Positions 30,270 to 53,216 of a DNA stretch of 64,000 bases are shown here, one piece after another. How positions within the stretch are numbered: position 1 is the first letter of the stretch; each line of letters starts with the position of its first letter. A program made the translations under genes and the position numbers. The DNA is from Acidithiobacillus caldus ATCC 51756 (GTDB lineage Bacteria > Pseudomonadota > Gammaproteobacteria > Acidithiobacillales > Acidithiobacillaceae). The notes beneath the pieces are model-generated. The model was not told where the DNA came from. It saw nothing but the letters and a program-made list of their open reading frames with translations, and did not search any database. The stretch spans positions 2,242,615-2,306,614 of the forward strand of contig NZ_CP005986.1 in assembly GCF_000175575.2 (NCBI RefSeq), written 5' to 3'.

Positions 30270-30326
30270 CGTGTCCAGGGGCACGTATGGCGCACACCGT
30301 AGCCAAAACTCCACAGTTACAGGCTC

Positions 30327-30356: not shown

Positions 30357-30394
30357 GCGCGTCTTACGCCTAGGGCCCTGCAGAGCTTGCCTGA

Positions 30395-31489
<1,095 letters not shown>

Positions 31490-31511
31490 TACCTTCCGGG
31501 TCTAGTCGGTC

Positions 31512-35711: not shown

Positions 35712-35746
35712 TCCGTCCATACGCTCTTGTCCACCTGAGGAATCCC

Positions 35747-36913
35747 ATGTCCGTTCCGTTCCGTCGCGCAGCCATCGCGCTCCTCACCATCTGGATCACG
35801 CTCTTTGCCAGAATCTCCCTGGCGGCGACGCCAACGCCGCAGATCCCCATTCCCCCGGCGCCGGCCCTGCCCGCCGTGGCCAGCTACGTGCTCATGGATT
35901 ACGACAGCGGTCAGATCATCGCCGCCAAAGAGGAGAACCTGCACCGCGCACCGGCCAGTCTCACCAAGCTGATGACGGCCTACCTCACCTATCAGGCCAT
36001 GGCCAACGGCAGCCTGCGACCAGACGAAACGGTGAACGTGTCCAACACCGCCTGGAAGACGGGCGGCTCACGCATGTTCATACAGCCTGGCCTGCCGGTG
36101 ACGGTGGATCAGCTGCTCCACGGCCTGCTCATCGATTCGGGCAACGACGCCGCCGTGGCTCTGGCCGAGACCGTCGGCGGCAGCCAGGCCGGCTTTGTCA
36201 CCCTGATGAACGATGCTGCCCGACAATTGCACCTGGACAACACCCACTACAGCAACGTCAACGGTCTTCCCGACAGCAACCTTTATACCACTGCCCTGGA
36301 TGTGGCCAAGCTCAGTCGTGCCCTGATTCAACAGTATCCCCAGGTGATCGCCATCACCCGGCAAAAATCCTACACCTACAACAAGATCACGCAGCGCAGC
36401 TGGAATCCCGTGCTCTTTCGCGACCCCAGCGTCGACGGTCTAAAGACGGGACTCACCGACGAATCCGGCTACTGCATCGACGCTACCGCACAACGCAATG
36501 GCCGACGTCTCATTGCCGTGGTCCTGGGCGGGCCAAGTTGGTCTGGCAGCACCAATGCGGTGGAATCCCTGCTCAACTACGGCTACCGCTTTTTTGAGGA
36601 TCACGAGCTCTACAAACCCATGACCGAGGTGGGCGAGATTCGCGATCCCAACCTGTCGCCCATGCGTGTGCCCGTCGCTGTGGCCACCGAGGTGATCGTC
36701 ACCGTGCCGCGTGGGCGGCTGGATGAACTGGACAGGCGCATCGTCTGGAAGCCGGCCGGCTCCCTGCCCATAGCCAAGGGCGGCGTCGTTGGCGAAATGA
36801 TCCTTTCCCTGCACGGTCAGACACTACAGACCGTACCTCTGGTTAGTCTGGTCCCGGTGGATCGGGCCGGCTGGCTCGCGCGACAGTGGTACCGCATACA
36901 GAGTGCCCTGTGA
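35747..36913 (+). CDS. dacC: D-alanyl-D-alanine carboxypeptidase (PBP5/6 family)
   Basis: A periplasmic low-molecular-weight penicillin-binding protein, 388 aa, that trims the terminal D-Ala of pentapeptides. A signal peptide occupies residues 1-26. The active motifs are SLTK (71-74), SGN (in LIDSGNDAA) and KTG (in DGLKTGLTDESG). The C-terminus WLARQWYRIQSAL is an amphipathic membrane tether. ATG 35747 is chosen for the signal peptide; the frame extends upstream into rodA. DacA and DacC are not distinguishable here. Confidence 0.92.
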   Translation: MSVPFRRAAIALLTIWITLFARISLAATPTPQIPIPPAPALPAVASYVLMDYDSGQIIAAKEENLHRAPASLTKLMTAYLTYQAMANGSLRPDETVNVSNTAWKTGGSRMFIQPGLPVTVDQLLHGLLIDSGNDAAVALAETVGGSQAGFVTLMNDAARQLHLDNTHYSNVNGLPDSNLYTTALDVAKLSRALIQQYPQVIAITRQKSYTYNKITQRSWNPVLFRDPSVDGLKTGLTDESGYCIDATAQRNGRRLIAVVLGGPSWSGSTNAVESLLNYGYRFFEDHELYKPMTEVGEIRDPNLSPMRVPVAVATEVIVTVPRGRLDELDRRIVWKPAGSLPIAKGGVVGEMILSLHGQTLQTVPLVSLVPVDRAGWLARQWYRIQSAL

Positions 36914-37010
36914 TGCGGCCAGGGCTTCACCCCCGGACGGTGAAGCTCTACCATGGGGACATGAGGTCGGGCTCGGATCAGAGCCCAGCACAGGTCTATG
37001 AGGAGAGCAG

Positions 37011-37292
37011 ATGACCGCGACAGGTTTGGAATCCGGCGACCCCTTTGGCGGGGATTATCCCCACCTCCACCACGTCAAGGTCATTGGTCAGAGCGATGAC
37101 CTGCTCGCAGCGGTGCGCAGGGCCGTGGCACCACATGCTCCAAGCCTGCCGGACTCGGCCTTTTCGGTACGACCGAGCCGGGCCGGTAACTACCACGCCG
37201 TGACCTGTTCTCTGATGGTGGAGAGCGACGACCAGTTACGGGCCGTGTACGCGGCCGTAAGCCATATCGAGGGGGTCATCCTGTGCCTGTGA
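37011..37292 (+). CDS. ybeD: YbeD/DUF493-family protein
   Basis: A small ACT-like protein of 93 aa ([57 protein letters not shown]). As in many proteobacteria it sits between the dac gene and lipB and overlaps lipB by 10 bp. Molecular role unknown; family members are thought to be regulatory. Confidence 0.9.
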   Translation: MTATGLESGDPFGGDYPHLHHVKVIGQSDDLLAAVRRAVAPHAPSLPDSAFSVRPSRAGNYHAVTCSLMVESDDQLRAVYAAVSHIEGVILCL

Positions 37293-37927
37293 ACTCCCCC
37301 ATCGCCCTGCGCTGCTGGCCGGGTCTGCTTCCCTACTTCACGGTACTCGATGCCATGCGCGAATTCACGCGCCAACGCGATGCCGTGACCGGCGACCAGA
37401 TCTGGCTCTTGCAGCATCCGCCCGTCATCACCCTGGGCAGCAATGCCGATCCAACGGATGTCGTCGATCCCGGATCCATTCCCGTCATCCGCAGCGATCG
37501 CGGCGGTCAGGTCACCTACCACGGCCCTGGGCAATGGGTCGTCTACACCTTGCTGGATCTCCGGCGTATGGGTATCGGTGTTCGCGATCTCATCAGCGCC
37601 CTGGAGAATGCCGTGATCGACCTGCTGGCAGACCATGCCATCGTCGCTACCGCCCGCAGCGAGGCTCCCGGAGTCTACGTCCACGGCGCCAAGATCGCCT
37701 CCGTTGGCCTCAAAGTCCACAAGGGCTGCAGCTATCACGGTCTGAGTCTCAACGTGCACATGGACCTCGAGCCCTTCGGGCGGATCACGCCCTGCGGACA
37801 GCAAGGCCTCGTGGTGACTCAGATCCATGACCTTGCACCGGACTGGGACGAAGCCAGCATTCCCAAGGCGCTGATGGATGCCCTGGCGCGGCGGCTGGGC
37901 CGCCCCATACAGCGGGGTGGGGTATGA
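37283..37927 (+). CDS. lipB: Octanoyltransferase LipB
   Basis: Transfers octanoate from acyl carrier protein to lipoyl domains, first step of canonical lipoylation. GTG start at 37283; 214 aa. Motifs: [15 protein letters not shown], catalytic Lys in [12 protein letters not shown], and [10 protein letters not shown]; the acyl-thioester Cys is in RITPCGQQG. It overlaps both neighbours. Together with lipA it is a complete classical route separate from the sLpl/LipS genes at 1.2-5.7 kb. Confidence 0.96.
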
Positions 37928-38889
37928 GCGCCGCCCACGATGCCGATGGCACGGGGCGGGCGCAACGCGGGCGCGACAAGGTGGCGCGCAACCCCATTCC
38001 CATCGTCGCCGAGAGTGTGCCTCGGCAGCGTAAGCCAGACTGGTTCCGGGTGACATCTCCCCTCTCTCCGGAAGTGGACCGCCTCAAGGGTATTCTGCGC
38101 GACGCGAAGCTGCATACTGTCTGTGAGGAGGCCTCCTGCCCCAATCTGGGAGAGTGCTTTGGTTCCGGTACGGCCACCTTCATGATCCTGGGGGATCTGT
38201 GCACCCGGCGCTGCCCCTTCTGCGATGTGGCCCATGGGCGCCCCGAGGCTCCGGACCCCGAAGAACCGGAGCATCTGGCAGAGACCGTCGCGCGCATGGG
38301 GCTGCGTTTCGTGGTCGTCACCTCGGTGGACCGCGACGATCTGAGAGACGGTGGCGCAGCGCACTTTGCCGCCGTCATCGGGGCCCTGCGGGCGCGCTGT
38401 CCGCAGTTGCACATCGAGATCCTGGTGCCCGATTTCCGCGGTCGCGCGGCGGTGGCTCTGGATATCCTCGGCGCCACCCCCCCCGACGTCTTCAACCATA
38501 ATCTCGAGACGGTGCCGCGCCTCTACCCGCGCGCCCGCCCCGGCGCCGATTACCGCCACTCCCTGCAACTGCTGCGGGACTTCAAGGCGCGCCAGCCACA
38601 GGTACCCAGCAAGTCGGGCCTGATGCTGGGCCTTGGTGAAAGCCTGGACGAGATTCGGGCTGTCCTTCAGGACTTACGGGCAGCGAACTGCGATCTGTTG
38701 ACCCTGGGGCAGTATCTTGCCCCCTCCCGGCACCATCTGCCGGTGGAGCGCTATGTGCCGCCCGAGGAATTTGCAGCACTCAGAAACGAGGCCTTGGCCA
38801 TGGGGTTCAGCCAGGTAGCCGCCGGCCCGCTGGTCCGCTCCTCCTACCACGCCGAACACAGTTTCCGCGAGTGGCGGGCAGACGAATAG
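37924..38889 (+). CDS. lipA: Lipoyl synthase LipA
   Basis: A radical SAM enzyme inserting two sulfurs into octanoyl domains, 321 aa. Auxiliary cluster cysteines are C67-C72-C78 ([12 protein letters not shown]) and SAM cluster cysteines C93-C97-C100 (CTRRCPFC). The C-terminal RSSYHAE serine ligand motif is present. It follows lipB with a 4-bp overlap. Confidence 0.97.
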
Positions 38890-38896
38890 GGACACG

Positions 38897-39700
38897 GTGT
38901 TGCCACACACGCTGCTCCTGACGCTGGCATCGGCGATGCTGCAACCGCCGGGTATCTTTCTGGCGCTCGCGCTGCTCGCGGCTGCCCTGCTTGCCCTGGG
39001 GGTGCGGGCACTGGGCTGGTCGCTGCTCCTTGCCGCCGGTGTTGGACTCTACCTCAGCGCCACCGGAGTCGGGGCACGCTGGCTGGTACTGCCCCTGGAA
39101 AACCGCTACCCGCCCCTGCTGCACCCGCAACCCGGAGTGGGTGCCATCGTCGTTCTGGGAGGCGGTGAGGTGGCGAGGCCGCCGGGGGACGGTGGCGATA
39201 TGGCCAATGCGCGAACCTTGATGCGCCTGGAGGCCGCTGCCAAGCTCGCAAAACAAAGTGCCTTGCCCATCGTCACCAGCGGTGGCGCGCCGCGCTTCGG
39301 TGCGCCCCCGGAGGCCACCACCATGGCGCGGCTGCTGCGGGAGAGCTTTGCCGTCCACAACCCCATCTGGATCGAGGGCAGATCCTTCAACACCGCCGCC
39401 AACGCCTTCGATAGCAGCAAGTTGCTGGCGCAAAAAGGCATCCACCGCGTCTATCTGGTGACCTCGGCCCTACACATGCCCAGAGCCATGGCCTGGTTTC
39501 GTCGCGCCGGTCTCGATCCCGTGCCTGTGCCCTGCGATTACCGACTCGATCGCGGCCTGACTTCTGGCTACGAGTCCTGGCTGCCGCGCGCTATCTATCT
39601 CGAGGCCAGCAGTGAGGCCATCCACGAATATCTGGGCCTATTCTGGCTTCATCTGCAGGAGCGCGGCTGGGTACGCGGTCGAGCCAACGCTGCTCAGTGA
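38897..39700 (+). CDS. YdcF/ElyC-like DUF218 protein
   Basis: An inner-membrane protein of 267 aa with two N-terminal hydrophobic segments (about residues 1-22 and 25-50) and a DUF218 domain: AIVVLGGGE, LPIVTSGGAPR, RSFNTAANAFDSSKLL and HRVYLVTSALHMPRAMAWF. Family members (ElyC, SanA) act in envelope integrity or undecaprenyl-phosphate use. GTG start 7 bp after lipA. Confidence 0.87.
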   Translation: MLPHTLLLTLASAMLQPPGIFLALALLAAALLALGVRALGWSLLLAAGVGLYLSATGVGARWLVLPLENRYPPLLHPQPGVGAIVVLGGGEVARPPGDGGDMANARTLMRLEAAAKLAKQSALPIVTSGGAPRFGAPPEATTMARLLRESFAVHNPIWIEGRSFNTAANAFDSSKLLAQKGIHRVYLVTSALHMPRAMAWFRRAGLDPVPVPCDYRLDRGLTSGYESWLPRAIYLEASSEAIHEYLGLFWLHLQERGWVRGRANAAQ

Positions 39701-39705
39701 TCGTG

Positions 39706-40782
39706 CTAGGCATCGGGGAGCGTGACCTGTACCTGCACCCGCTCCTCCGGCTTGGCCAGGGGCAAGGGTGGCGGTACCGCCGCGCCATTGGCCGAGGGCC
39801 CATAGGGCGCGTAGGCGTAGGGTTTGGCCGGCAGCGCTGCCGCCAGCGTTTCGTAACTGGGCGCATGTACGCCGATGGGCAGGGCCACGGTATTGTGCTC
39901 GGCCACCATGCGCCGCACCCGCGCCCAATCGATGGCCTCGTGGATGTGGTGCTCTGCCATGAAATCCTTGATGTCCACCACGGCGCGCTGCAGGTCGCTG
40001 GGACCAGCCTTGTGGTAGGCATGGAGCGGCTTGAAGGCCTGCAGATAGACCTGGCCGTCGCGCACGCCCACCAGGTAGGGTCGGTCGATGAGGCGCACGG
40101 GCGTCCCCACCGGCACCATGGGGAAAAGCTGGGCGATATTCTCCGGATACATCTGGAAGCAGCCCTGACTGGCCCGCATCCCCACACCCCAGGGATGATA
40201 GGTTCCGTGGATGAAGATCCCGGACAATCCCGTTTCCATGGCCAGCTCACCCATGGGGTTCTCGGCCCCCGGCGGCCAGTACCAGGGAATATCCATGTGG
40301 AACTTTTTTTCGAACCAAGCGTGAATGTTTTTGGGAACATTCCAGGCGGGCATCTTGAATTTCTGGATGATGGAAGTGGTGGTCAGGGATTCCTTCCATC
40401 CGGGCAGGAAAACGCCCACGGGATAGGTGAAGACCACGTGGCGGTCTGCCGGGAAGTAGTACAGGCGCCGTGCTGGGATATCGACGACGATACCCGTCCA
40501 GGGTTTTGGCGGCAGGATATACTCCGAGGGAATCACCACCTTACGGGCCTGACCCGGCAACCAGGGATTCACACCGGGATTGGCGCCGACGATCTCGTCG
40601 TAACCGACATCGTAGAAGCGGCCGATATCCAGCAGGGTATCGTCGCGATGGGTCGTTACGGCCATGAGGCGACCGACGATATTGCCGTGTTGCGGCAAAG
40701 TGTAGACACTGGCCTGCGCCACAGGCGCGACGAGTCCGGCGAAAAGGAAAGCCAGAAAGGGACGCAGAATTTTTTTAAGCAT
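39706..40782 (-). CDS. L,D-transpeptidase (YkuD domain, LysM-like N-terminus)
   Basis: A periplasmic L,D-transpeptidase of 358 aa. Signal peptide 1-24 (ending AQA), a LysM-like segment (residues 40-85, DTLLDIGRFYDVGYDEIVGANP), then the YkuD domain with the catalytic HGTYHP...MRASQGCFQM (His and Cys). A C-terminal Pro-rich tail follows. It resembles ErfK/YbiS, which link lipoprotein or form 3-3 crosslinks. Convergent with the ydcF-like gene, 5 bp apart. Confidence 0.9.
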   Translation of the reverse strand: MLKKILRPFLAFLFAGLVAPVAQASVYTLPQHGNIVGRLMAVTTHRDDTLLDIGRFYDVGYDEIVGANPGVNPWLPGQARKVVIPSEYILPPKPWTGIVVDIPARRLYYFPADRHVVFTYPVGVFLPGWKESLTTTSIIQKFKMPAWNVPKNIHAWFEKKFHMDIPWYWPPGAENPMGELAMETGLSGIFIHGTYHPWGVGMRASQGCFQMYPENIAQLFPMVPVGTPVRLIDRPYLVGVRDGQVYLQAFKPLHAYHKAGPSDLQRAVVDIKDFMAEHHIHEAIDWARVRRMVAEHNTVALPIGVHAPSYETLAAALPAKPYAYAPYGPSANGAAVPPPLPLAKPEERVQVQVTLPDA

Positions 40783-40883
40783 TCAAAACCTCGGTTTTGC
40801 GGCTGCAGCGCAAGGCACCAATGCGGCGGGCATTGGCAGGCCTGACACTGGGGTGCACAATTGTAACGAAAAAGAGGAAGGCA

Positions 40884-41336
40884 ATGGAATCACCATTTTT
40901 ACTGGAGCTGCGCGAACACCTGTACGGCACACCCTTGGCCCAGGAGCGCCTTCGCGACGCACTGGGTCGGCTGGAACACCTCGTCGGGCAGCTTGCCCAG
41001 GATTTGCAGATTCCGCACCTCGGTCCCAGTGTGGGTATTGGCCGCCAGGGCGATGCTCAGCGTCTGTGCGTGGCGGATCACCACTGGACCGGCGCGGTAC
41101 ACGCCTGGGGGGTTGCCGTCTGCTCCACATCGCCCACGGGGACGCTGCGCGCGGATTGGCATCTGGCCAAGGTGAGTCGAGAGCGTCTGCCGCGGGTGGT
41201 CGCCGCCCTTCCCCAATTTTTCCGGGAATACGCCGCCCTCGCTGTCGGGCAGGCCGGCGAACGCGCGAGCAGCCAGCGCCTGCTCAGCATTGCCGAGCTT
41301 CTGAACGAGACCACCGGAACCCCACGCAGCCGTTGA
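40884..41336 (+). CDS. Hypothetical protein
   Basis: A 150-aa soluble protein, ATG 40884 after GAGGAAG. It begins MESPFLLELREHLYGTPLAQ with helical heptad-like Leu spacing. No known domain is seen. It lies between the transpeptidase and the TPR gene, 66 bp from the latter on the same strand, so it might belong to that cluster. Confidence 0.65.
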   Translation: MESPFLLELREHLYGTPLAQERLRDALGRLEHLVGQLAQDLQIPHLGPSVGIGRQGDAQRLCVADHHWTGAVHAWGVAVCSTSPTGTLRADWHLAKVSRERLPRVVAALPQFFREYAALAVGQAGERASSQRLLSIAELLNETTGTPRSR

Positions 41337-41402
41337 CAGGGCCATGAAAGCAACTAACTAAGGCCCTATCCAGGCCATCGATAACGGAATCCCGCGGTCC
41401 CC

Positions 41403-42923
41403 ATGTCCCTACCCCTGACCAGCCAGATCCTCATCCTCCTCCTCGGCGCCATGCTCGTGGCGGCCGTGCTGTGGAAGTGGCGGCAGAGCCGCGGTTTGCG
41501 GCAGGGGAGCAGGCCCGCGAAGGACCGGGGTGTGCGCGAGCCGGCCTCGCCACCACGCACCGCGCCGACACCGGTGCCGATGCCCCAGGCACAACGCGGG
41601 TCGGCGCGCGCCGCGCGCGTCGAGGAGGTCTCGCTCTTCGACGAGGTCGAGATCTACCTGTCCTATGGTCACCTGGAACAGGCCGCAACGGCACTGCGCT
41701 GGTACGTGGATCATCACCCTGAGGATCGGGCGCAGAGGCGTCGACTGCTGGATATCTATCTCGAGATTCCCGATATCGACGCCTACGCCGAAATCCTGGA
41801 GACAGGCCTCGATGCGGGACTCACGCCGCCGGAGGAGTTGCGCGAGCGGATCTTTCTCGGCCTCGAGCGCGATGCGCAGAATCTTGGTCTGCGCGTCCTG
41901 GGCGAGTCCACCTTGGGGCTGGACAACGCCGACATCGATCGGGAGCTGCGTCGGCGACGGCCCGAGGATCGGCGCCCAGCAGCCGCGCCGCAAACCAGCG
42001 GCAGCCCGCTCCTTGCGGACACGCAGCGTAATCTGGAGCAGATCATCGTCCATCCCGAGCCCCTGTCTCTGCAGGGTATCCTCCTGGATGGCTTTACCCA
42101 ACGGGAATCGGGACATGCCGACGATCGGCCGGTGCCGCACGAGACCACCGCCGCGCAGCTCGTGCATGGTCCGGCGCAGGTGCTTACCTTGGACGATGCC
42201 GAGATCGACATCATCGCCGCCATGGAGTCGCCGCAGCGGGCCGTGGCGCTGCTCCTGCAAGCGGGTGAACGGGCAAAGGCCGAGGCCCTGCTGTGGCGCT
42301 GGGTACTGCTGCGACCCCGTCAAATCGGCCTTCAGGTGCAGCTCCTCGAGCTCACCTACCGGCAACGGCGGGCCGAGGATTACGGGCGGGCCCTGGTATT
42401 TCTGTACGTAACCCTGTGGGGAGCGGGGCAGGCCCTGCGCCAGCGCCTCCTGCACCTGGGCAGGACCCTGGCCGACCTGCCGCTCTGGGATGCCCTTGCC
42501 GCGACGGAAGCAGCCCCCGGACGGCTGGCTGCCCTTGCCGACGAAGGCGGAATCTATCTGCCGACCAAGGCCATCCCCCTCAGCAGTCCGGCGCTGGTTC
42601 AAGAGCAACTGCGTCGGGATCACGAGATAGTCAAGGACGACTCCCACAAAGACAGCATTCTCGCGGAATTCAATGCGCTGTTGGAATACGGTCAGGTGGA
42701 GGAAGCCGTCACCCTGCTCGAGGGAGCCGTCCTCGCCAAACCCGAGCGCGAGCGCTACTACCCCCTGCTGTTGGAGATGTACGAGCGTATGGAGACTCCG
42801 GAGCGATTTGCCCAATTCACCCAGAAGGTCCTTGCCAGTCCGCATCCCCCGGGTGAGGCCGTCGTGCGTCAGATGTATCACCTTGCCGAACGCCTTTCGC
42901 GTCGGCAACGCCACACCGTCTAG
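41403..42923 (+). CDS. TPR-repeat membrane-anchored protein (FimV-like)
   Basis: A 506-aa protein with an N-terminal transmembrane helix (residues 7-24), a basic Pro-rich linker to about 75, then helical repeats: VEIYLSYGHLEQAATALRWY VDHHPEDRAQ is the first, and others occur at 285-345 and 410-470. It resembles the cytoplasmic TPR part of FimV but lacks the LysM domain. It heads a five-gene set with a receiver-like protein, a GTPase and two roadblock-like proteins. Likely a polar or motility scaffold; that is inference. Confidence 0.7.
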   Translation: MSLPLTSQILILLLGAMLVAAVLWKWRQSRGLRQGSRPAKDRGVREPASPPRTAPTPVPMPQAQRGSARAARVEEVSLFDEVEIYLSYGHLEQAATALRWYVDHHPEDRAQRRRLLDIYLEIPDIDAYAEILETGLDAGLTPPEELRERIFLGLERDAQNLGLRVLGESTLGLDNADIDRELRRRRPEDRRPAAAPQTSGSPLLADTQRNLEQIIVHPEPLSLQGILLDGFTQRESGHADDRPVPHETTAAQLVHGPAQVLTLDDAEIDIIAAMESPQRAVALLLQAGERAKAEALLWRWVLLRPRQIGLQVQLLELTYRQRRAEDYGRALVFLYVTLWGAGQALRQRLLHLGRTLADLPLWDALAATEAAPGRLAALADEGGIYLPTKAIPLSSPALVQEQLRRDHEIVKDDSHKDSILAEFNALLEYGQVEEAVTLLEGAVLAKPERERYYPLLLEMYERMETPERFAQFTQKVLASPHPPGEAVVRQMYHLAERLSRRQRHTV

Positions 42924-42935
42924 GAAACTCGAGTA

Positions 42936-44120
42936 ATGAATCCACAGACACCAAAACAGTGCCTGAAAGTGCAAGCCATCGGCATGGACGGACGCAAGTC
43001 GGCGGTATTCCGGATGGCGTTCAAGATGTACAGCAAGCGACAGTTCCTGCTGCTGGAGGCGGGGGAAACGGAGCCTGCAGACCTTGCAGTGGCCGATCTG
43101 GACAGCCCCGAGGCAGCGGCCCAGCTCGAAGACTTCGTTCGGGAACATCCGGGCGTTCCGGTGCTGTGCACCAGCGTCGATCCGACAACCGCCCAGCCCT
43201 GGCCCGTGCTGCGCAAGCCCATCCGGATGGAAACCCTCTTTCCGGCACTGGAAGCGCTGCTCACGCAGACGCAAGCGCCCAAAGCCCCTCCGCAAACACC
43301 GAGCGCTGCCACCCACGAGCCGCTGGTGGCGGCGCCGGCGCAACCGGTCGCGCCTGCCGACCCCGCCCACCAGCGTCCGACGCCGCAGACCGTGCCCTCT
43401 CCTGCCCGGCAGGACATAGCGGCCAATGAAGTACCACCCCGCCCGGCCCCGCCACCCGTCGTCACCCTGCTGCCCGAGAGCGTGCGCACCTTCGACCCCG
43501 AGGTCGGACTCTTGGGTCTGCTCCTGCGTGTGCGCCGGGACAAGATCCCCGCGGCCATCACGCGCGGTCGCGATGACCTCGTTTTCATCCTCGACCCCGA
43601 AGCAGACCGGGTGCGCACGACGCTGGGGGATGCGGACATCCAGACCCTGTGTAGCGAGGGTGAGGCGCTGCACCTGCGTGCCCTGAAAACCAGCGATGGG
43701 CTGGACCCCCGTGAGGAACGCGAACTCACTCTGCAGGCACTCCTGTGGCAGGTAGCGGCGTGGTCGGCCCGTGGACGCCTCAGCCAGCGCATCCCCCTCA
43801 ACGGCGTCGTACAGTTACGGCAATGGCCCAACCTCACCCGTCTGCCTGTCCTGCCCGAGTCCCTGCGCCTGTCCGCCTTCTTTGCCCGATCGCCCGCCTC
43901 CCCCATCCTCACCGTCAAGATACTGCAGGTACAGCCCTCGGACCTCTTCAATTTCCTGGCGGCTGCCGACAGCCTGGAATTGCTCCGCTATGGCAAAGAA
44001 AGCAGCGCAAGCGCCAGCAAGAAGCCGGAAGACGCTGGCGCGAGTGCTGAGGAGAGCGCGAAGGCAACGCCCCGGCGCGGCTTCCTCGGCAGGATTCTGG
44101 CCAAGATTGCGGGACTATGA
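42936..44120 (+). CDS. Receiver-like protein with C-terminal alpha/beta domain, unknown function
   Basis: A 394-aa protein. The first 110 residues look like a degenerate response-regulator receiver: DLAVADLDSPEAAA, then PVLCTS and a RKPIRM segment at the place of the KP motif. A Pro/Ala-rich linker follows (115-185). The C-terminal part (190-365) resembles a winged-helix or DUF4388-like domain, ending with a basic tail. It lies 12 bp after the TPR gene and 42 bp before the GTPase gene. No name can be given. Confidence 0.65.
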   Translation: MNPQTPKQCLKVQAIGMDGRKSAVFRMAFKMYSKRQFLLLEAGETEPADLAVADLDSPEAAAQLEDFVREHPGVPVLCTSVDPTTAQPWPVLRKPIRMETLFPALEALLTQTQAPKAPPQTPSAATHEPLVAAPAQPVAPADPAHQRPTPQTVPSPARQDIAANEVPPRPAPPPVVTLLPESVRTFDPEVGLLGLLLRVRRDKIPAAITRGRDDLVFILDPEADRVRTTLGDADIQTLCSEGEALHLRALKTSDGLDPREERELTLQALLWQVAAWSARGRLSQRIPLNGVVQLRQWPNLTRLPVLPESLRLSAFFARSPASPILTVKILQVQPSDLFNFLAAADSLELLRYGKESSASASKKPEDAGASAEESAKATPRRGFLGRILAKIAGL

Positions 44121-44162
44121 GTCCGGCAGAGGAAATTGGAGCGATGACAGAAAGGAGCTCCC

Positions 44163-44729
44163 ATGAAGGAAGATAACAAGATCGTTTTTACCGGTCCCGT
44201 TGGCGTCGGCAAGACTTCGGCCATTGCCGCACTATCCGATGTGCCCATCATCTCCACCGATGCCAGGGCCTCGGACATGACCATCAACCGTAAAGGCCAC
44301 ACCACGGTGGCCATGGATTACGGTATCCTCAATCTCGAGGGTGGCGGCAAGGTCCACCTCTATGGGACGCCGGGGCAGGAACGCTTCGACTTCATGTGGG
44401 AGATCCTCACCACGGGTGGCCTCGGTCTCATCCTGATGCTCGACAACACCCGACCGAATCCCAAGAAGGACATGCAGTTCTTCCTCCACGCCTTCCGCGA
44501 CTATATCGTCGATGTGCCGGTGGTCATCGGCATCTCCAAAACGGATCTGCAAGCCCGACCGAGTCCGCGCGACTATGCCGACATGCTGCCGGAGGTAACG
44601 GCGGATCTGCGCATGCTCAATCCCGTCCCGCCCATATTCGAGGTAGACGGCCGCAACAAGGAAGACGTCAAGAATCTGGTGCTTGCCCTGCTCTACTCCA
44701 TCGATCCGGGCATCGGGGCGGGCAGATGA
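44163..44729 (+). CDS. Small Ras-like GTPase (MglA/COG2229-like)
   Basis: A 188-aa GTPase. P-loop GPVGVGKT (11-18), switch II GTPGQERF (68-75) and SKTD in place of NKxD near residue 118. A TTVAMDYG segment supplies the switch I threonine region. The G2/G3 order and the DxxG equivalent (YGTPG) resemble MglA-group GTPases. It is followed by two roadblock-like genes, whose homologue MglB is an MglA GAP. In other bacteria such pairs set polarity of pili or motility. The local role is inferred. Confidence 0.85.
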   Translation: MKEDNKIVFTGPVGVGKTSAIAALSDVPIISTDARASDMTINRKGHTTVAMDYGILNLEGGGKVHLYGTPGQERFDFMWEILTTGGLGLILMLDNTRPNPKKDMQFFLHAFRDYIVDVPVVIGISKTDLQARPSPRDYADMLPEVTADLRMLNPVPPIFEVDGRNKEDVKNLVLALLYSIDPGIGAGR

Positions 44730-45364
44730 GCATCGAACTGGCCGTGAGCGCGGATCCTCTTTTTGCCGAGATCACCCCCGCCGGCGTCTTTTATGCCGTC
44801 TCCAGCCCCGAGCCCGGTGGCAACCGCAGCATTCTGCTCAATATCCTCCGCGAAGGGAACACCGCCCCCTTCTCCGTGGCGATGGCCCAGCGCTGGACAC
44901 AGCTTGCCGACGAGGAAGATGCCCTGCGCAGTATCTTTCGCCTCCAGCGCCTGGGGCTCGTGCGCGGCAATCCCGAGGCGCGGCGACCACCGCGGGAGCG
45001 CCTGGAGGATCTCCTTCCCCCGCTACTGGGGCAGCTCTCGGACCACGGCAAGGCCCTGCTCGCCGACGAGAATGGCTTTTATCTGGCGACGGCGGGCTTT
45101 GCGCACGAATCCGCCGAGGAACTGGCCGGGCTGTCCGCCGACCTCATCAGCCTGCAATCGCGGCACGGGCGCCTGCTGCGCAACAATCTGCGCGTCAACA
45201 GCGAAAGTTGGGCTCTGGTGGATCCTGCGGGTAACGCCGAACTGGGTTTCTGGCCACTCTTCGTCGGCCAGCAGCGTTTCATGCTCATCATCGGTGGAAC
45301 ACCCAGACTGCAGGATCAGTCCTTCGTCTATCTCGTCCAGGCCCTCGACACCCGCTATCGCTGA
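44726..45364 (+). CDS. Winged-helix plus roadblock-like protein
   Basis: A 212-aa protein whose ATG overlaps the GTPase stop (ATGA). Residues 1-85 look like a winged helix (LLNILREGNTAPFSVAMAQRW, SIFRLQRLGLVRG). Residues 90-212 have the roadblock strand-helix pattern (ALLADENGFYLATAGFAHESAEELAGL, and LFVGQQRFMLIIGG). It probably binds the GTPase together with the next protein. Confidence 0.65.
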   Translation: MSIELAVSADPLFAEITPAGVFYAVSSPEPGGNRSILLNILREGNTAPFSVAMAQRWTQLADEEDALRSIFRLQRLGLVRGNPEARRPPRERLEDLLPPLLGQLSDHGKALLADENGFYLATAGFAHESAEELAGLSADLISLQSRHGRLLRNNLRVNSESWALVDPAGNAELGFWPLFVGQQRFMLIIGGTPRLQDQSFVYLVQALDTRYR

Positions 45365-45402
45365 TCGCCCCATTCCGTTCCGATTTTTCAAGGAGTCATC
45401 CC

Positions 45403-45765
45403 ATGCGTGAAGAAATGCTCAAATCCATCCTCAGCGACCTCAACGGCTCGTCGGCCGATATCGAGGCCTCGGCAGTGATCTCCACCGACGGTCTGACCAT
45501 CGCCTCCCTGCTCGCCGCCAACATGGACGAGGATCGCGTCGGCGCCATGGCGGCAGCCATGCTCTCCCTGGGCGACCGTACCGCCGCGGAGCTGGCGCGG
45601 GGGGAACTGGAACAGGTCATGATCAAGGGCGACAACGGCTACGTCTTGCTCATCCACGCCGGCCACGATGCCGTCCTTACCGTCATCGCCCGCAAGGAGG
45701 CCAAGCTCGGCCTCGTCTTCCTGGACGCCAAGCGCGCCGCCGCGGGGATCGCCGAATTGCTCTGA
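45403..45765 (+). CDS. Roadblock/LC7-domain protein (MglB-like)
   Basis: A 120-aa single roadblock domain: [29 protein letters not shown], then [28 protein letters not shown] and [28 protein letters not shown]. Size and pattern are those of MglB-type GTPase-activating or co-regulating proteins. It closes the cluster, 38 bp after the previous gene and 67 bp before glyQ. Confidence 0.87.
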
Positions 45766-45832
45766 GGCGCGCGACTTTCCAAAGCGCGGGCCCATGGGCC
45801 ATAATCGGCCCCATTCGCCGCATGGGGTGCTC

Positions 45833-46717
45833 ATGACCTTTCAGGAAATTCTCCGCCGACTGCAAGACTTCTGGGCCCGCCAGGGCTGCGTCATCCTGCA
45901 GCCGCTGGACATGCCCGTGGGTGCCGGAACCTTTCATCCGGCCACCTTCCTGCGTGCCATAGGGCCCGAGCCGTGGCGGGCGGCCTACGTCCAGCCCTCT
46001 CGTCGTCCGACGGACGGTCGTTACGGCGACAACCCCAACCGGCTTCAGCATTATTATCAGTTTCAGGCGGTCCTCAAGCCCAACCCAGAAGATCTCCAGG
46101 AGCTCTATTTGCAGTCTCTGGCAGAGCTCGGCATCGACCCCGCCCTACAGGACATCCGCTTCGTGGAGGACGACTGGGAGTCGCCAACCCTCGGGGCCTG
46201 GGGCCTGGGCTGGGAGGTCTGGCTGAACGGCATGGAGGTTACCCAGTTCACCTACTTTCAGCAGGTCGGCGGCCTGGAGTGTCGTCCGGTCATGGGTGAG
46301 GTCACCTACGGTGTGGAACGTCTGGCCATGTATTTGCAGGGCGTGGAGAGTGTCTACGACCTCACCTGGACGCCCGGGGTGAGCTACGGCGATGTCTACC
46401 ACCAGAATGAGGTGGAGCAATCGCGCTACAACTTTGAGCTGGCGCCCGTCGAAGATCTTTTTTACCGCTTCGATCGCAGCGAGGCGGACTGCCGCGCCCT
46501 GGTGGCGCAGCGTCTGCCCCTGCCTGCTTACGAGCGGGTGCTGGAGTGCTCGCATACGTTCAACCTGCTGGACGCCCGCCACGCCATCGCCGTCAACGAA
46601 CGCGCCCGATACATAGGGCGGGTGCGCAATCTGGCGCGTGCCGTCGCCGAAGTCTATGCCGACGCTCGGGCAGAACTGGGGCACCCCTTGCTGCGGAGGA
46701 CCCATGCGACCGTCTGA
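45833..46717 (+). CDS. glyQ: Glycyl-tRNA synthetase alpha subunit
   Basis: Class II aminoacyl-tRNA synthetase alpha chain, 294 aa. Start [19 protein letters not shown] is the conserved N-terminus. Motifs [13 protein letters not shown] and [19 protein letters not shown] are diagnostic. It overlaps glyS by 14 bp. Confidence 0.97.
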
Positions 46718-48791
46718 GGACCTCCTCCTGGAAATCGGCTGCGAGGAATTACCCGCGCAGGAGCAACCCCGCCTGCTGCAGGCGGCGCCCGAGATTTTTC
46801 AGGGCCTTCTGGATGAGGCCGGGATCGCCTTTGGGGTCGTCCACGGCTTCGTGGGACCGCGCCGTCTGGCCCTCCTGGTGGAGGATCTGGCTCTGGAAAC
46901 CCAGGCCCGCGAAGAATGGCGCCGCGGCCCCAGCCTCGATCGTGCCTTCACCGCAGACGGTCAACCCAGCGCCGCCGCCCTGGGCTTCGCCCGTTCCTGT
47001 GGCGTCGCCCCCGACGCGCTCGAGGAGCTGGCCACGGACAAAGGACCGGTGTTGGCCTTTCGCGTCGTCACACCAGCGCAGAGCAGTGCGCGCCTGCTGC
47101 CCGGGATCGCCCAACGCTGGTTGCAAACGCTGCCCTTGCGCAAACGCATGCGCTGGGGCGAGCGTGATGACCGGTTTTCCCGTCCCGTGCGCTGGCTGGT
47201 CCTACGCCTGGGATCCCAGGTCCTGCCCTGGCAAAGCTTTGGTCTGGAAGCTGGTGCTGCCAGTCGCGGCCACCGCGTGCACCACCCCGAGGCGGTGCCC
47301 CTGCCCGTGCTGCGCGACTACCCGACCCTGCTCCGCGAGGCCAAGGTACGGGCAGACTGGCACGAACGGCGCCAGCATATTCTTCGGGAGTTGAGCTGCC
47401 TTGCCGAAAAGTTGGGAGCGCAGGCCCTGCTGGACGACGCCCTCGCCGATGAGATCACCGGACTCAATGAGTGGCCCGTTGCCCTGGCCGGCAGCTTCGA
47501 CCCCGATTATCTTCGGGTTCCCGAGGCCGTACTGCGCACGGTGATGGTACAGCACCAACGCTACGTGCCCCTGCGCGGTGGCGATGGTCGGCTGGCCCCG
47601 CACTACCTGTTCATCGCCAACATCGCCAGCCGTGATCCCCAGGTCGTCGTCCGGGGCAACGATCGCGTCCTGCGGGCGCGTCTGGCCGACGCCGCCTTCT
47701 TCTGGGATCAGGACCGGCGCCGGTCCCTCGCGAGTCGTCTGCCGGAGCTCGATGCCCTGCTCTTCCAGGATGGGCTCGGCAGCATGGCCGAGAAGAGCCA
47801 TCGCCTGGAGGCTCTGGCCCGCAGTCTGGCGGTAGCGTTTGGCCTCGATCCCCGGGCGGCAGCGCACGCGGCACGCCTGTGCAAGGCCGACCTGCTGACG
47901 GGCATGGTGGGCGAGTTCCCCGAGCTGCAGGGCATCATGGGCGGACATTATGCCCGTCACGACGGCGAGGACGAGGCCATCGCCACGGCCATAGCCGAAC
48001 AGTATCGTCCCGCCGGTCGCGATGATCCCCTGCCGGAGTCTCCTCTCGGGCGGATTCTGGCCCTTGCGGACAAGGCCGATACCTTGTGGGGATTCTTCGC
48101 CATCGGCCAGATCCCGAGCGGCGACCGCGACCCCTTCGGTCTGCGCCGGGCGGCACTGGGGATACTGCGTATCGCCCTGGAGGGCAGCGGGCTGTCGCTA
48201 CGCCAACTTCTGCGGGCGGCTGCCGATGGCTATGGGGCGTCCCTCCACCTTGCCGATCCCGAAGCGGTAACGGAGTCGGCGTGGGCCTTCGTGCAGGAAC
48301 GTCTGCGGGTACTGCTGCGCGACGAGGGTTTCGCCGCCGACCAGATTCAGGCCGTCCTCGCCGTTGCCGGCGACGATCCCATCGCCGCCCGGCGGCGCCT
48401 CGAGAGCCTTGCCGAATTCCTGCGCCTGCACGAGTCCGCCGATGCCCTCGCGGCCTTGATCAAGCGCATCAACAACCTCTTGCGCAAGGAAGATCTTGGC
48501 AGCCTGCCGCAGTGCAACCCCGATCGTCTTCAGGAGCCGGCCGAGATTGCCCTGTGGCGCGAGTATTCGGCACTGCAGGAGGCGCTGATCCCTCTGCTTG
48601 CCGCCGGGGATTTTGCCGCCAGCCTGGACCTGCTGGCCGGTCTGCGGTCGGCGGTGGACCGTTTCTTCCAGGAGATCCTCGTCCTCTGTGAGGATGCCCG
48701 CCTGCGCGCCAATCGTCTGGCCCTGCTCGCGCAGATCCAGAAAAGCTTCCTACAGATCGCCGATTTCTCCCTGTTGCAGGGCCGTTCGTGA
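46704..48791 (+). CDS. glyS: Glycyl-tRNA synthetase beta subunit
   Basis: The beta chain, 695 aa, normal length. Start ATG 46704 with GGAGG upstream gives [18 protein letters not shown], the conserved opening. Segments VQHQRYVPL and [14 protein letters not shown] are family landmarks, with the HD-like domain around LEGLARSLA. It overlaps gmhB by 4 bp. Confidence 0.97.
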
Positions 48792-49324
48792 GTCAGCTCA
48801 TCGTCCTCGATCGCGACGGCGTCATCAACGAGGACAGCGACGCCTACATCAAATCGCCGGCGGAGTGGCGTCCCATACCCGGCAGCCTCGAGGCCATCGC
48901 CCGCCTCAAGCGTGCCGGCTACCTGGTAGCCGTCGCCAGCAATCAGTCGGGCATCGGTCGGCGACTCTTCGACATCCGTGCCCTCAATGCCATTCACGCC
49001 CGCATGCGACGTGAACTGGCTGCGGTGGGAGGGCGCATAGACGCCATCTTCTATTGTCCCCACCACCCCGAAGCCGGCTGCAGCTGCCGCAAGCCCCTGC
49101 CGGGACTTTTTCTGGAAATTGCCGAGCGCTTCCAGATCTCGCTGAGTCAGGTGCCCGCTGTGGGCGACAGCCTGCGCGATCTGCACGCCGCCCGCGCCGC
49201 CGGGGCCCGTCCCCTGCTGGTCCTTACGGGCAAGGGGCAAGGGGCCCGGAGCGAGGCCGAGGCCATGGGCGTACCCGTGTATGCCAATCTTGCCGAGGCC
49301 GTCGAGTCGATCCTCGGGCACTGA
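48788..49324 (+). CDS. gmhB: D-glycero-beta-D-manno-heptose-1,7-bisphosphate 7-phosphatase
   Basis: HAD-family phosphatase of the LPS heptose pathway, 178 aa, GTG start coupled to glyS. Motifs: LDRDGVINEDSDAYIKSP (nucleophile Asp), SNQSGIGR, and the zinc loop CPHHPEAGCSCRKP; also GDSLRDLHAA. Confidence 0.95.
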   Translation: MSQLIVLDRDGVINEDSDAYIKSPAEWRPIPGSLEAIARLKRAGYLVAVASNQSGIGRRLFDIRALNAIHARMRRELAAVGGRIDAIFYCPHHPEAGCSCRKPLPGLFLEIAERFQISLSQVPAVGDSLRDLHAARAAGARPLLVLTGKGQGARSEAEAMGVPVYANLAEAVESILGH

Positions 49325-49341
49325 GCGCCGTGGGCCTGTCC

Positions 49342-50109
49342 ATGGTGCTGCGCAGCACACTCTTTTATGTCGGGTTTACCCTCTGGACCCTGGCCTATGC
49401 GCCCCTGACGCCACTCGCCTGGCTGCTTCTGAGCCGAACCCAGCGCATTGCCTTCTGTGGTCTCTGGGCTCGGGTTGGGGCTCGCTGGTTATCCTGGAGC
49501 TGCGGCATCGGCGTCGACGTCCAAGGTGAGGCGCCCGCCCGGGATCGTCCGGTGGTACTCGTCTGCAATCACCAGTCGGCCCTGGAAACCCTGTTGTTGT
49601 GGCGCTATTTTCCGCGCATGGCGGTGGTCCTCAAGGCGGAGCTCCTGCGCCTGCCCGTGATCGGCTGGGCCCTGCCCCTGGCCTGGCCCATCGCCATCCA
49701 GCGCGAGGCCGGGCGCAAGGCTCTGGAGCAGGTCCTCAGCGAGGGCCGCAAACGCCTGGAAGCAGGACTGCCCGTACTCATCTTTCCCGAGGGTACCCGC
49801 CAGGCCTGTGGCGAGGTGGGCCGCTTCCACCAGAGCGCGGTCCAGCTTGCCCGGACCTGCGGCGTGCCCATTCAGACCATCGCCCTCAACAGCGGTTGCT
49901 TCTGGCCCAAGGGACAGTGGCGCAAGTATCCCGGCACGGTCCGGCTGGAGTTTGGCCCCGTCGTGCCCGTGAGCGACTCCAACGCCCGTTTCACGGCACT
50001 GCTGGAGGCACGCATTCGCAGCACCGTGGAGGCTATGCCGCGCGGCCCCGGCTTTCCAGTTGCAGATGCATCCAGGCCGCCACGGCGGCGGCGACATCCA
50101 CCCCAGTAG
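49342..50109 (+). CDS. plsC: 1-acyl-sn-glycerol-3-phosphate acyltransferase
   Basis: A membrane acyltransferase of 255 aa with a hydrophobic N-terminal segment. The acyltransferase motif is NHQSALET, HX4E rather than the usual HX4D, as in several proteobacterial PlsC. FPEGTRQ is present. A GTG at 49330 is an alternative start. Its 3' end overlaps the convergent rimK-like gene by 77 bp. Confidence 0.9.
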   Translation: MVLRSTLFYVGFTLWTLAYAPLTPLAWLLLSRTQRIAFCGLWARVGARWLSWSCGIGVDVQGEAPARDRPVVLVCNHQSALETLLLWRYFPRMAVVLKAELLRLPVIGWALPLAWPIAIQREAGRKALEQVLSEGRKRLEAGLPVLIFPEGTRQACGEVGRFHQSAVQLARTCGVPIQTIALNSGCFWPKGQWRKYPGTVRLEFGPVVPVSDSNARFTALLEARIRSTVEAMPRGPGFPVADASRPPRRRRHPPQ

Positions 50110-50938
50110 CTTTCTCGATGCCCTCGAGGCTCGGTACCGGGTTCACCTCCAGTACCCGCAGACTACCGTCAGCGGCACGCATCAGATCCACGCCGGCAAA
50201 GTCGAGATCCAGGGCGGCGCTGGCACGCCGGGAGAGCTCCTGTACCTGCGCGTCCAGAACCCCCAGATCCCAGGCGCGCGCCTGACCGCCGCAGTGGAGG
50301 TTACTGCGGAAGTCCTGCGCAGACGCCCGGCGCTCCATGGCGGCCAATACCCGATCGCCCAGGACGATGACCCGCAGATCGCTGCGCCCCGGCAGGAACT
50401 CCTGCACCATGGCCTCGTGCTGCAGGTGCAACAGGGTATCCAGGAGCGCGCTGGCCACCTCTCGCGACTCCGCGAGGTTTACTCCAACCCCCTGCGAACC
50501 CGACAGGAGCTTTACGACCACCGGCGGCGCTAGGGTATCGAGCAGCGCTTCCTTCTGGCTGGCGTGGGCAAAATAGGCGGTTCTGGGCACCGGTAGACCA
50601 GCCGCCTGCAGGATCTGCAGAGAGCCGAACTTGTCCCGGGCCGCCAGCAGGGCATCGGCATCGTTCAGACAGTACCTGCCCTGGGCCGCAAAATGGCGGA
50701 GAATGCGCGCGCCGAGCTGCGTCAGGGGACTGCCTACCCGCGGCAGGACCGCTGCCACCTCGACCACGCCGACGTCGCGGTGGCGCCAGGTAAATTCCCC
50801 ATCGAGACCAAGGATGAACTCCTCGGGGGCGAGTCGGAGCACCGCAAAACCACGGTCCTCCAGGGCCTGCTGCAGCCGCCGCGTCGAGTACAGCTCCGGC
50901 TGACGCGACAGCAGCGCGACGGTATCCACCCCGCTCAC
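50033..50938 (-). CDS. RimK-family ATP-grasp ligase
   Basis: An ATP-grasp enzyme of 301 aa. ARDKFGSLQILQAAGLPVP, PPVVVKLLSGSQGVGVNL, VQEFLPG.SDLRVIVLGD and the metal site VLEVNPVPSLEGIE are typical. Family members add glutamate to ribosomal S6 or make other peptide or cofactor bonds. The substrate is unknown. It overlaps the upstream small gene by 4 bp, so the two are probably co-translated. Confidence 0.85.
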   Translation of the reverse strand: MSGVDTVALLSRQPELYSTRRLQQALEDRGFAVLRLAPEEFILGLDGEFTWRHRDVGVVEVAAVLPRVGSPLTQLGARILRHFAAQGRYCLNDADALLAARDKFGSLQILQAAGLPVPRTAYFAHASQKEALLDTLAPPVVVKLLSGSQGVGVNLAESREVASALLDTLLHLQHEAMVQEFLPGRSDLRVIVLGDRVLAAMERRASAQDFRSNLHCGGQARAWDLGVLDAQVQELSRRASAALDLDFAGVDLMRAADGSLRVLEVNPVPSLEGIEKATGVDVAAAVAAWMHLQLESRGRAA

Positions 50939-51249
50939 GCAGAAGGACTGGGAGCCGCACGAAAGCGTAGCAGCGGCAACTCACCGTGGGCGATGGAACG
51001 ACGAATGAAGGCCGCTCGACCAGGCTCTCGTCGCTCCAAGGCTGCCTCTCCCTCCGCGGCGCAGCCCAGCAGAGCGCTGAACAACACCTCCAGCTCCAGC
51101 GCATCCACCCGCAAGGACTCCGGCTCAAGCCCCGGACTGCGCCAAAAGAGATTGCTCGCCCAGCCCTTGGCGCGGATGGCGGGCTCCGCGTACCAGCGGG
51201 CACAGCGATGCGCTATGGCGGCAAAATCGGCGGGATCCTCGATGGCCAT
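50935..51249 (-). CDS. Small protein of unknown function, paralogue of 52920-53216
   Basis: A 104-aa protein; ATG 51249 follows an AGG-type site, better than the open frame upstream, which runs into the promoter of hdrB1 copy 2. The C-terminal half (VDALELEVLFSALL, then EPGRAAFIRR and PLLR) aligns with the gene at 52920-53216. No domain is recognised. It overlaps the rimK-like gene by 4 bp. Confidence 0.75.
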   Translation of the reverse strand: MAIEDPADFAAIAHRCARWYAEPAIRAKGWASNLFWRSPGLEPESLRVDALELEVLFSALLGCAAEGEAALERREPGRAAFIRRSIAHGELPLLRFRAAPSPSA

Positions 51250-51298
51250 GGACGTACCTCGTGCGTATGCAGACGTGGACGAGCATAGAGCATTGGGT

Positions 51299-51327
51299 TT
51301 GGCAAGGGAACATAAGTGGAGCATAAT
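51299..51327 (+). promoter_or_regulatory. Sigma70-like promoter of the second hdrB1
   Basis: TTGGCA (51299-51304), 17-bp spacer and CATAAT (51322-51327), near consensus. It lies 75 bp before the second hdrB1 ATG, outside the duplicated block, and so gives this copy independent expression. Confidence 0.7.
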
Positions 51328-51387
51328 GATCAACTATAAAAAGGACAGAGCAACCGGTAACGACGATTGGCGACCCGCGGGGTCAGC

Positions 51388-52738
51388 AAGGAGTGACGGA
51401 TATGAGTGAGAACACGACGCAGCAAGGGGTGGCTGGGCACGGTGCCTTTTTTCAGGATACGAATCTGAAGGCCGAGGAGGCCGAGGCGGCGACGGCCTGG
51501 GTGCGCAGTCACGTGGACCGGCGCACGGTGGATCTGGGCGAGCGCATGGACGACATCCGTGAGCACATGTGGGAGTTGGAGAAGGAGGGCGAGATCATCG
51601 TCCACCGCATCACCGATGCCCACAAGCCCGTGGAGGTGGAGACCCTTTTCGGCTGGAAGAAGCGCATTCCCACCAACCAGCTCTGGCACCACAAGAGCTG
51701 TGGGCAGTGCGGTAACATCCCGGGCTACCCCACGAGCCTCATGTGGTTCATGAACAAGTTCGGCATCGACTACCTCGACGAGACCGATCAGACCTCCTGT
51801 ACCGCCTGGAACTACCACGGTTCCGGCATCGGCAATGTCGAGTCCCTGGCGGCGGTCTTTTTGCGCAACTTCCATCAGGCCTACGTCTCGGGCAAGCAGC
51901 ACGGCTTCGAGAACGGCCACTTCTACCCGCTGGTGCACTGCGGCACCTCCTTTGGCAACTACAAGGAGATTCGCAAGTACCTCATCGAATCCGCCGAACT
52001 GCGCGAGAAGGTCAAGAAGATCCTCGGCAAGCTCGGGCGTCTGGTCGACGGCAAGATCGTCATCCCCGAGGAAGTGGTGCACTACAGCGAGTGGCTGCAC
52101 GTCATGCGCAATCGCATTGCCAGTGAGTTGCAGACCATCGACATGAGCAACATCCGGGTGACGGTGCACGCCGCTTGCCATTACTACAAGATGGTGCACG
52201 AAGACGCGGTCTACGATAACACCGTTTTGGGTGGCAACCGCACGGCGGTGGGCACCTCCGTGGCCCAGGCCCTGGGGGCGCAGGTCATCGACTACTCCAC
52301 CTGGTACGACTGCTGCGGCTTTGGTTTCCGCCACATCATTTCCGAGCGCGAGTTTACCCGCAGCTTCACCATGAACCGCAAGATCAAGGTGGCGCGGGAG
52401 GAGGCCAAGGCGGACGTGATGATTGGCATCGACACGGGCTGCATCACCACCATGGACAAGAACCAGTGGATCGGCAAGGCGCACGACATGAACTACTCCG
52501 TGCCCATCATTGCCGACGTGCAGTTGGCGGCTCTGGCCTGCGGTGCCGATCCCTTCAAGATCGTGCAGCTGCAGTGGCACGCCTCGCCCTGCGAAGACTT
52601 GGTGGAAAAGATGGGCATCAGCTGGGACAAGGCCAAGGCCGACTTCCAGGAATACTTGAAGCAGGTGGAAGCGGGCAACGTGGAGTACCTCTACAACCCC
52701 GAACTCGCCACCAATCAGCACATCAATATGAAGACGGG
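51388..52738 (+). repeat. hdrB1 duplication, copy 2
   Basis: A 1351-bp block nearly identical to 10699-12049, running from the ribosome site AAGGAG to two codons before the stop. No transposase, direct target repeat or integrase is visible at the edges. Confidence 0.9.
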
Positions 52739-52745
52739 TTCCTGA
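51402..52745 (+). CDS. hdrB1: Second HdrB1 (orphan sHdr subunit)
   Basis: A 447-aa duplicate of HdrB1. All cysteine motifs seen in copy 1 are retained (KSCGQCGN, HAACHYYKM, YDCCGFGFRH, GCITTMDKN). Only conservative protein changes are visible: Glu for Asp near residue 49, Val for Ile in DAVYDNT, and a terminal Ser for Ala. The DNA has several synonymous changes. It stands alone, without hdrC or hdrA, with its own promoter and terminator, so it can raise HdrB1 dosage or serve a different partner. An intact gene, not a pseudogene. Confidence 0.93.
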   Translation: MSENTTQQGVAGHGAFFQDTNLKAEEAEAATAWVRSHVDRRTVDLGERMDDIREHMWELEKEGEIIVHRITDAHKPVEVETLFGWKKRIPTNQLWHHKSCGQCGNIPGYPTSLMWFMNKFGIDYLDETDQTSCTAWNYHGSGIGNVESLAAVFLRNFHQAYVSGKQHGFENGHFYPLVHCGTSFGNYKEIRKYLIESAELREKVKKILGKLGRLVDGKIVIPEEVVHYSEWLHVMRNRIASELQTIDMSNIRVTVHAACHYYKMVHEDAVYDNTVLGGNRTAVGTSVAQALGAQVIDYSTWYDCCGFGFRHIISEREFTRSFTMNRKIKVAREEAKADVMIGIDTGCITTMDKNQWIGKAHDMNYSVPIIADVQLAALACGADPFKIVQLQWHASPCEDLVEKMGISWDKAKADFQEYLKQVEAGNVEYLYNPELATNQHINMKTGS

Positions 52746-52764: not shown

Positions 52765-52791
52765 AGCCCCGCCCCCGGCGGGGCTTTTTTT
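52765..52791 (+). terminator. Rho-independent terminator after hdrB1 copy 2
   Basis: A perfect 9-bp stem AGCCCCGCC / GGCGGGGCT (52765-52785, loop CCC) is followed by a T run to 52791. It ends the monocistronic hdrB1 transcript. Confidence 0.92.
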
Positions 52792-52919: not shown

Positions 52920-53216
52920 GTGGATCATCAGGAACTCAACAAACGGTGTGTGGAACTCTTCCAGAATGCCAACGTCCGTCGGCGGATGTGGGATGCCCGG
53001 ATGTTCTGGCGAGTCGGAGACCGCATGAATCCCACCCCCGAGGAGTTGACCCAGCCGAAGGTCGATCCCTGCGAGCTGGAGGTCATGCTGGCCACCGCCG
53101 CCCTGACGGAATCTCAGTGTGCCCCTGAGTTGGACAAGAAGGAGCCCGGCCGTGCCGCCTTCATCCAGAGGCAGGTGCGCGAGGGCATGCGGCCGCTGCT
53201 GCGCCCGGCTCAGTGA
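52920..53216 (+). CDS. Small protein of unknown function, paralogue of 50935-51249
   Basis: A 98-aa protein with GTG start at 52920, GGAG 8 nt upstream. It shares with 50935-51249 the segments ELEVM..A and EPGRAAFIQR, and PLLR at the end, plus an FW near residue 30. It has three cysteines. Function unknown. The two paralogues flank the duplicated hdrB1. Confidence 0.75.
   Translation: MDHQELNKRCVELFQNANVRRRMWDARMFWRVGDRMNPTPEELTQPKVDPCELEVMLATAALTESQCAPELDKKEPGRAAFIQRQVREGMRPLLRPAQ

Follow-up and report, generated by a model that had tools for sequence, protein, structure and literature searches.

An orphan hdrB1 copy shared across the Acidithiobacillaceae and most likely homogenised with its operon counterpart by gene conversion

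Orphan amoC/pmoC copies occur in nitrifiers and methanotrophs, and the locus described here resembles them in being a solitary extra copy of one energy-metabolism subunit gene, although it codes for an unrelated protein. The subunit is HdrB1 of the sulfur-oxidizing Hdr-like (sHdr) complex, whose genes follow the order hdrC1B1A-hyp-hdrC2B2, and a soeABC-mogA-rhd-tusA-dsrE-hdr cluster has been described for A. caldus strain SM-1 (PMC6335251), a species that the gene order of the window would fit. For A. ferrooxidans, the literature already covers an orphan hdrB (AFE_2586) together with its induction by sulfur, its promoter and its protein: AFE_2586 is raised on sulfur (PMC2754497), its transcript start has been mapped and RegA binding reported (PMC5506826), and the protein is increased in pyrite biofilm (PMC6450195). 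Conversion as a mechanism is known from the tuf genes; specifically, tufA and tufB of Salmonella are two inverted, dispersed copies kept alike by recombination, and their concerted evolution is accompanied by occasional chromosomal inversion (PMC8262849). The hdrB1 pair shares this arrangement and most likely this mode of evolution, but here the gene encodes a metabolic subunit, the copies lie 26-39 kb apart and homogenisation appears partly lost in one lineage.

The window, that is, the whole stretch of 64,000 nucleotides of A. caldus ATCC 51756 that was analysed (genome of 2,987,045 bases in 4 contigs), contains a single repeat of at least 60 bp when searched with 20-nt seeds. Its arms, 51388-52738 on the plus strand and 10699-12049 on the minus strand, are 1351 nt long, inverted and 39,338 nt apart; the original prediction had recognised a real second copy, but had placed it 40 kb away and had missed the inverted arrangement. 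The repeat begins with an AAGGAG ribosome site, located 8 nt 5' of the start codon at 51402 (ATG), and stops within the penultimate sense codon, whereas the 400 bp on either side are unlike between operon and orphan, so that both the repeat bounds and the differing flanks proposed earlier agree with the alignment. The arms differ at 13 positions with 0 gaps, and the count of silent differences that had been suggested as a check comes to 11, the remaining two being amino-acid changes (D/E, I/V); past the repeat end, a further difference (A/S) falls in the final sense codon. The features of the two loci are listed in the table.

Coordinates of the features of the operon and orphan hdrB1 loci within the window
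Feature	Position	Strand	Basis or remark
hdrA of shdr operon	9624..10679	-	HdrA-type matches below cut-off
Operon hdrB1 copy	10692..12035	-	repeat alignment; hdrC1 upstream, hdrA downstream
hdrC1 of shdr operon	12084..12764	-	HdrC-type matches below cut-off; 4Fe-4S domains
Segment between inverted copies	12050..51387	.	hdrC1, DsrE-like, molybdopterin oxidoreductase genes, histidine kinase, sigma-54 regulator, SoxA-type cytochrome, others
RimK-like ATP-grasp gene, next to the orphan in most of the relatives compared	50033..50938	-	domain matches, flank comparison
Up, small divergent gene, paralogous to Dn	50935..51249	-	longer ORF 50935-51333 without Pfam/NCBIfam match; present in relatives
Putative orphan promoter TTGGCA-N17-CATAAT, spacer also conserved	51299..51327	+	scan; 22 aligned upstream regions; published AFE_2586 entry
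AAGGAG ribosome site, repeat start	51388..51393	+	sequence
Orphan hdrB1, 447 aa	51402..52745	+	CCG domain above Pfam cut-off; NCBIfam HdrB models below cut-offs; 99.3% protein identity to operon copy
Putative orphan intrinsic terminator	52766..52791	+	hairpin and seven T from sequence; scan gives inner stem 52771-52784; RNA fold
Dn, 98 aa, family co-occurring with hdrB1	52920..53216	+	class sample; model pLDDT 94.2, without PDB fold match

HdrB1 carries the cysteine-rich CCG domain (PF02754), while the methanogen HdrB model NF041780 reaches 126.8 bits against a cut-off of 450. The operon copy lies between hdrC1 and hdrA and is an ordinary HdrB1 in the sense of the described sHdr complex, whereas the orphan stands alone and is classed as sHdr HdrB1 because its sequence is 99.3% identical to the operon protein. 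The ten cysteine positions are occupied by no other residue in any of 38 aligned copies, incomplete copies being gapped there, in keeping with the earlier statement that the orphan retains every cysteine. On one side the orphan is flanked by the divergent Up gene and then the RimK-like gene, and on the other by the co-oriented Dn, followed by a TlpA-like gene, a pterin dehydratase gene and queH.

The promoter-like site upstream of the orphan matches the sigma70-type consensus at 10 of 12 positions (1 site found by the scan versus 0.3 expected), and the element TTGGC...GGAA..AT....GAGCATAAT shows strong conservation, broken by single changes, across an alignment of 22 orphan upstream regions, which bears out the sigma70-type promoter of the original prediction. 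The same element is printed for AFE_2586 in the mapped-promoter table (5' RACE) of PMC5506826, where the AFE_2586 stretch is identical to the sequence upstream of the A. ferrooxidans-type copy G018_L045. This locus is of the same type as AFE_2586 and has the same promoter element; the difference is that in G018, the genome matching AFE_2586, the two copies are down to 90% identity and group by position. When the pattern was sought elsewhere in the A. caldus genome, this site (2 mismatches) and one other (3 mismatches) were recovered, so no regulon is inferred. The terminator claimed earlier is backed by a hairpin followed by seven T and by an RNA fold better than that of shuffled sequences (z -2.84); conversely, the scan gives 2 terminator-like sites versus 1.9 in shuffles, a count at chance level, so the scan alone proves nothing. 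The objection that the orphan might never be transcribed is answered for A. ferrooxidans alone, by the published 5' RACE and proteomics; copy-resolving transcript or protein data were not found for A. caldus, and since the copies are near-identical, expression data mapped to either of them can be ambiguous.

The age of the orphan was addressed by comparing the flanks of copies and draft contig ends in 29 genomes of the family (G000-G028, that of the window included). At an E-value of 0.001, hdrB1 matches occur in 31 of 31 genomes of the order, the match in G012 being only a distant one (24%). The orphan context, defined as Up/rimK upstream or Dn/tlpA/queH downstream, borders an hdrB1 copy on one side or both in 28 of the 29 family genomes, the exception being G012, without a close hdrB1; the pair is accordingly older than the species, and the presence in relatives that the original prediction had proposed to check is family-wide. 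In nine drafts (G003, G009, G010, G014, G016, G020, G025, G026, G027), all four flanks (hdrC1-5', rimK-5', 3'-hdrA and 3'-Dn) end inside hdrB1, drafts breaking there because of the near-identical second copy; in A. thiooxidans A01, a partial HdrB has been described at a contig start (PMC4109375). Moreover, 15 family genomes have the two copies, or the ends of both, on a single contig, and in all 15 the arrangement is inverted, the 5' ends pointing towards each other across a gap of 25.7-39.4 kb; two copies with different flanks are present in the single-contig genomes G018, G022 and G023. The comparison of these sequences shows the orphan to be an old second copy that occupies the same locus across the family under its own conserved, putative promoter.

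Despite this age, operon and orphan copies are more alike within most genomes than between them. In a codon alignment of 38 copies, the two are 98.0-99.9% identical in G000, G002, G004, G007, G008, G015, G021 and G023, and about 90% identical in G018, G020 and G022. At 4-fold degenerate sites, the within-genome divergence is 0 in G008 and 0.005-0.074 in the other seven, whereas the nearest copy of another genome lies at 0.20-0.26 for six of the eight and at 0.10-0.12 for the closely related G002 and G023; copies are closer at silent sites within than between genomes, except in G018, G020 and G022. For a tree, 11 family genomes provide two copies of sufficient length; these are sisters at bootstrap 99-100 in seven genomes (including G008) and at bootstrap 65 in G002, while the other three (G018, G020, G022) sort by position. 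Topology tests on 14 copies of 7 genomes and 2 outgroup rows, with G008, G018, G020 and G022 left out and with groups chosen after the tree had been seen, reject forcing together the seven orphan copies (a cost of 1377 log-likelihood units, p-AU 7e-5), the seven operon copies (p-AU 0.0017), the orphans of G004, G007 and G015 (p-AU 5e-13) and those of G002, G021 and G023 (p-AU 4e-47). In operon/orphan pairs, similarity of the flanks is lost no more than a few bases from the gene, and the adjoining hdrC1, hdrA and Dn diverge between species. In several species pairs, hdrB1 changes at silent sites at about half the rate of hdrC1 and hdrA (0.24 versus 0.52 for G000/G015), a slowing absent from the G018/G022 pair, and codon constraint therefore adds to the similarity of the copies. 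Sulfuriferula-type orphans from outside the order (L088, L092) were considered and set aside as evidence for conversion: they are 85% and 83% identical to the operon copies of their own genomes and 85% to each other, and so say nothing for it.

Operon and orphan hdrB1 are shown by this comparison to evolve in concert in most genomes that can be judged, most likely through gene conversion. The original prediction had left the choice between recent copying and ongoing conversion; the former is excluded by the family-wide locus and promoter, and the latter is supported by the 4-fold distances, the tree and the topology test. By analogy with tufA/tufB, RecA-type conversion between the inverted copies would keep the pair alike, and the orphan, to judge from relatives, would supply the sHdr complex with additional HdrB1, under separate regulation, during sulfur growth. 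There is good reason to favour this account of an old, separately regulated orphan homogenised by conversion, which the A. ferrooxidans group has partly escaped, and it is held with high, though not full, confidence. In the open-licence literature, judged by title, no published report of hdrB1 gene conversion or concerted evolution was found.

The small genes beside the orphan bear on its possible partners. Up and Dn are about 34% identical, and neither received a Pfam or NCBIfam name; the Dn model gave nothing at E 0.001 or better in a Foldseek search against the PDB, and a profile search of PDB sequences gave no match. Among 274 gammaproteobacterial genomes of a class sample, the Dn profile, which detects Up as well (the matches in G180 and G291 being at least as close to Up), hits 12 and hdrB1 (E 1e-60) hits 18, with 11 shared (Fisher p 2.8e-14, a guide only since the genomes are related); one genome (G295) has the Dn/Up family without an hdrB1 match and seven have hdrB1 without the family. 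Of 398 genomes sampled from the phylum, 7 have hdrB1 and only that of the window has the Dn/Up family, and the link therefore rests on the class sample.

In the A. ferrooxidans-type genomes (G018, G020, G022), the two copies differ unevenly along the gene. Over codons 60-110, operon and orphan types differ by 26-31%, versus 3-5% when operon copies are compared with one another and 5-9% for orphan copies, and the orphan-specific patch spans approximately alignment codons 73-97, N-terminal of the region alignable with solved HdrB (query 100-403); with a mean pLDDT of 61.3, the HdrB1 structure model does not allow the patch to be located. Over codons 110-333, the divergence is 3.6-5.9% within a genome versus 6.0-7.6% between types across genomes, with 3.7-4.8% among operon copies and 4.6-5.7% among orphan copies. 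This within-genome closeness suggests that conversion still seems to act in the middle of the gene, short of full identity, while the patch is kept apart; in this group, conversion appears no longer to reach part of the gene, and the orphan has become an isoform with its own patch. An orphan-type patch is also found in the MAG copy G006_L054, in the extra copies of G023 and in both copies of A. ferrianus (G008), where its presence suggests that the operon copy was overwritten by the orphan. Such recurrence, the type-specific codons against a little-diverged middle and the presence of hdrB1 in 11 of the 12 genomes with the Dn/Up family would suit an orphan that is generally a distinct isoform for another partner (Up/Dn or another electron carrier), homogenisation in most species being a side effect. 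However, the proteins differ at 0-3 aligned codons in the eight genomes with near-identical pairs and are therefore hardly isoforms there, relatives of Up and Dn are not beside an hdrB1 in G029, G030 and G049, and the family is absent from 7 of the 18 hdrB1 genomes, which leaves this reading a rather unlikely one, with roughly one chance in its favour for several against.

Alternatively, the inverted copies may serve as a slow recombination switch, in which the 26-39 kb segment flips and leaves the shdr operon in two parts, hdrC1-hdrB1-terminator and orphan promoter-hdrB1-hdrA onward; in A. caldus, inversion of the 39-kb segment would place hdrB1-hdrA and the genes behind under the orphan promoter (RegA-bound in A. 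ferrooxidans). If so, the main promoter would read only hdrC1-hdrB1 up to the orphan terminator, and the orphan's own promoter and terminator would make both orientations workable. The uniformly inverted copies would permit such a flip, and the flanks in A. ferrianus are swapped at both copies (hdrC1-hdrB1-Dn and rimK-hdrB1-hdrA), as expected of its product; G006_L054, with the orphan upstream side and hdrA downstream, offers one swapped junction, and for tuf, 5 of 59 cassette-carrying clones were reported to show inversions, which older work had put at up to a quarter of events (PMC8262849). Against it, the standard order is found in seven assemblies of 1-6 contigs (G000, G004, G007, G015, G018, G022, G023; G015 judged by the operon copy and the orphan upstream side, its downstream side being without markers), and, with one genome compared per species, the alternative orientation is seen in the G008 draft and the G006 MAG only. 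Moreover, the A. ferrianus draft comes from Illumina sequencing with inserts of about 460 bp (PMC7040056), which cannot phase a near-identical 1.3-kb repeat, so that a wrong assembly path is a real possibility. Both the flip as such and the regulatory switch built on it are considered improbable.

A recent duplication in this species, which the 98.8% identity of its own pair over the codon alignment would suit, is rejected as very improbable, given the same locus, promoter and neighbours throughout the family. An assembly artefact, the objection that repeats of this kind invite by breaking drafts, is contradicted by relatives, including the three single-contig genomes with both sets of flanks, and by the 13 differences here, and its probability is close to nil.

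Further hdrB1 copies were observed elsewhere. G023 carries an extra pair (L042/L043, 5001-6329) with 2 differences, about 0.9 Mb apart and with nearly identical flanks, which is 81% like the main pair and has the orphan-type patch. Two more copies in G002 (L050/L051) are followed by hdrA and by HdrC-type genes, respectively, as in a second, rearranged hdr cluster. In G049 (L060/L061), an hdrB1 outside the operon is 97% like its operon copy and has a different neighbourhood. Lastly, in G118, outside the order, contigs end inside hdrB1 (L231, L235, L237, L238) with pieces 98-99% alike, probably a further pair of near-identical copies, one of which would not belong to the operon.

For sulfur oxidation, Dn and Up point to a linked, unnamed family of small proteins. 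Across the Acidithiobacillaceae, the hdrB1 pair would amount to a natural experiment on how conversion acts on a core gene of energy metabolism, which one lineage appears to have partly escaped with an isoform-specific patch.
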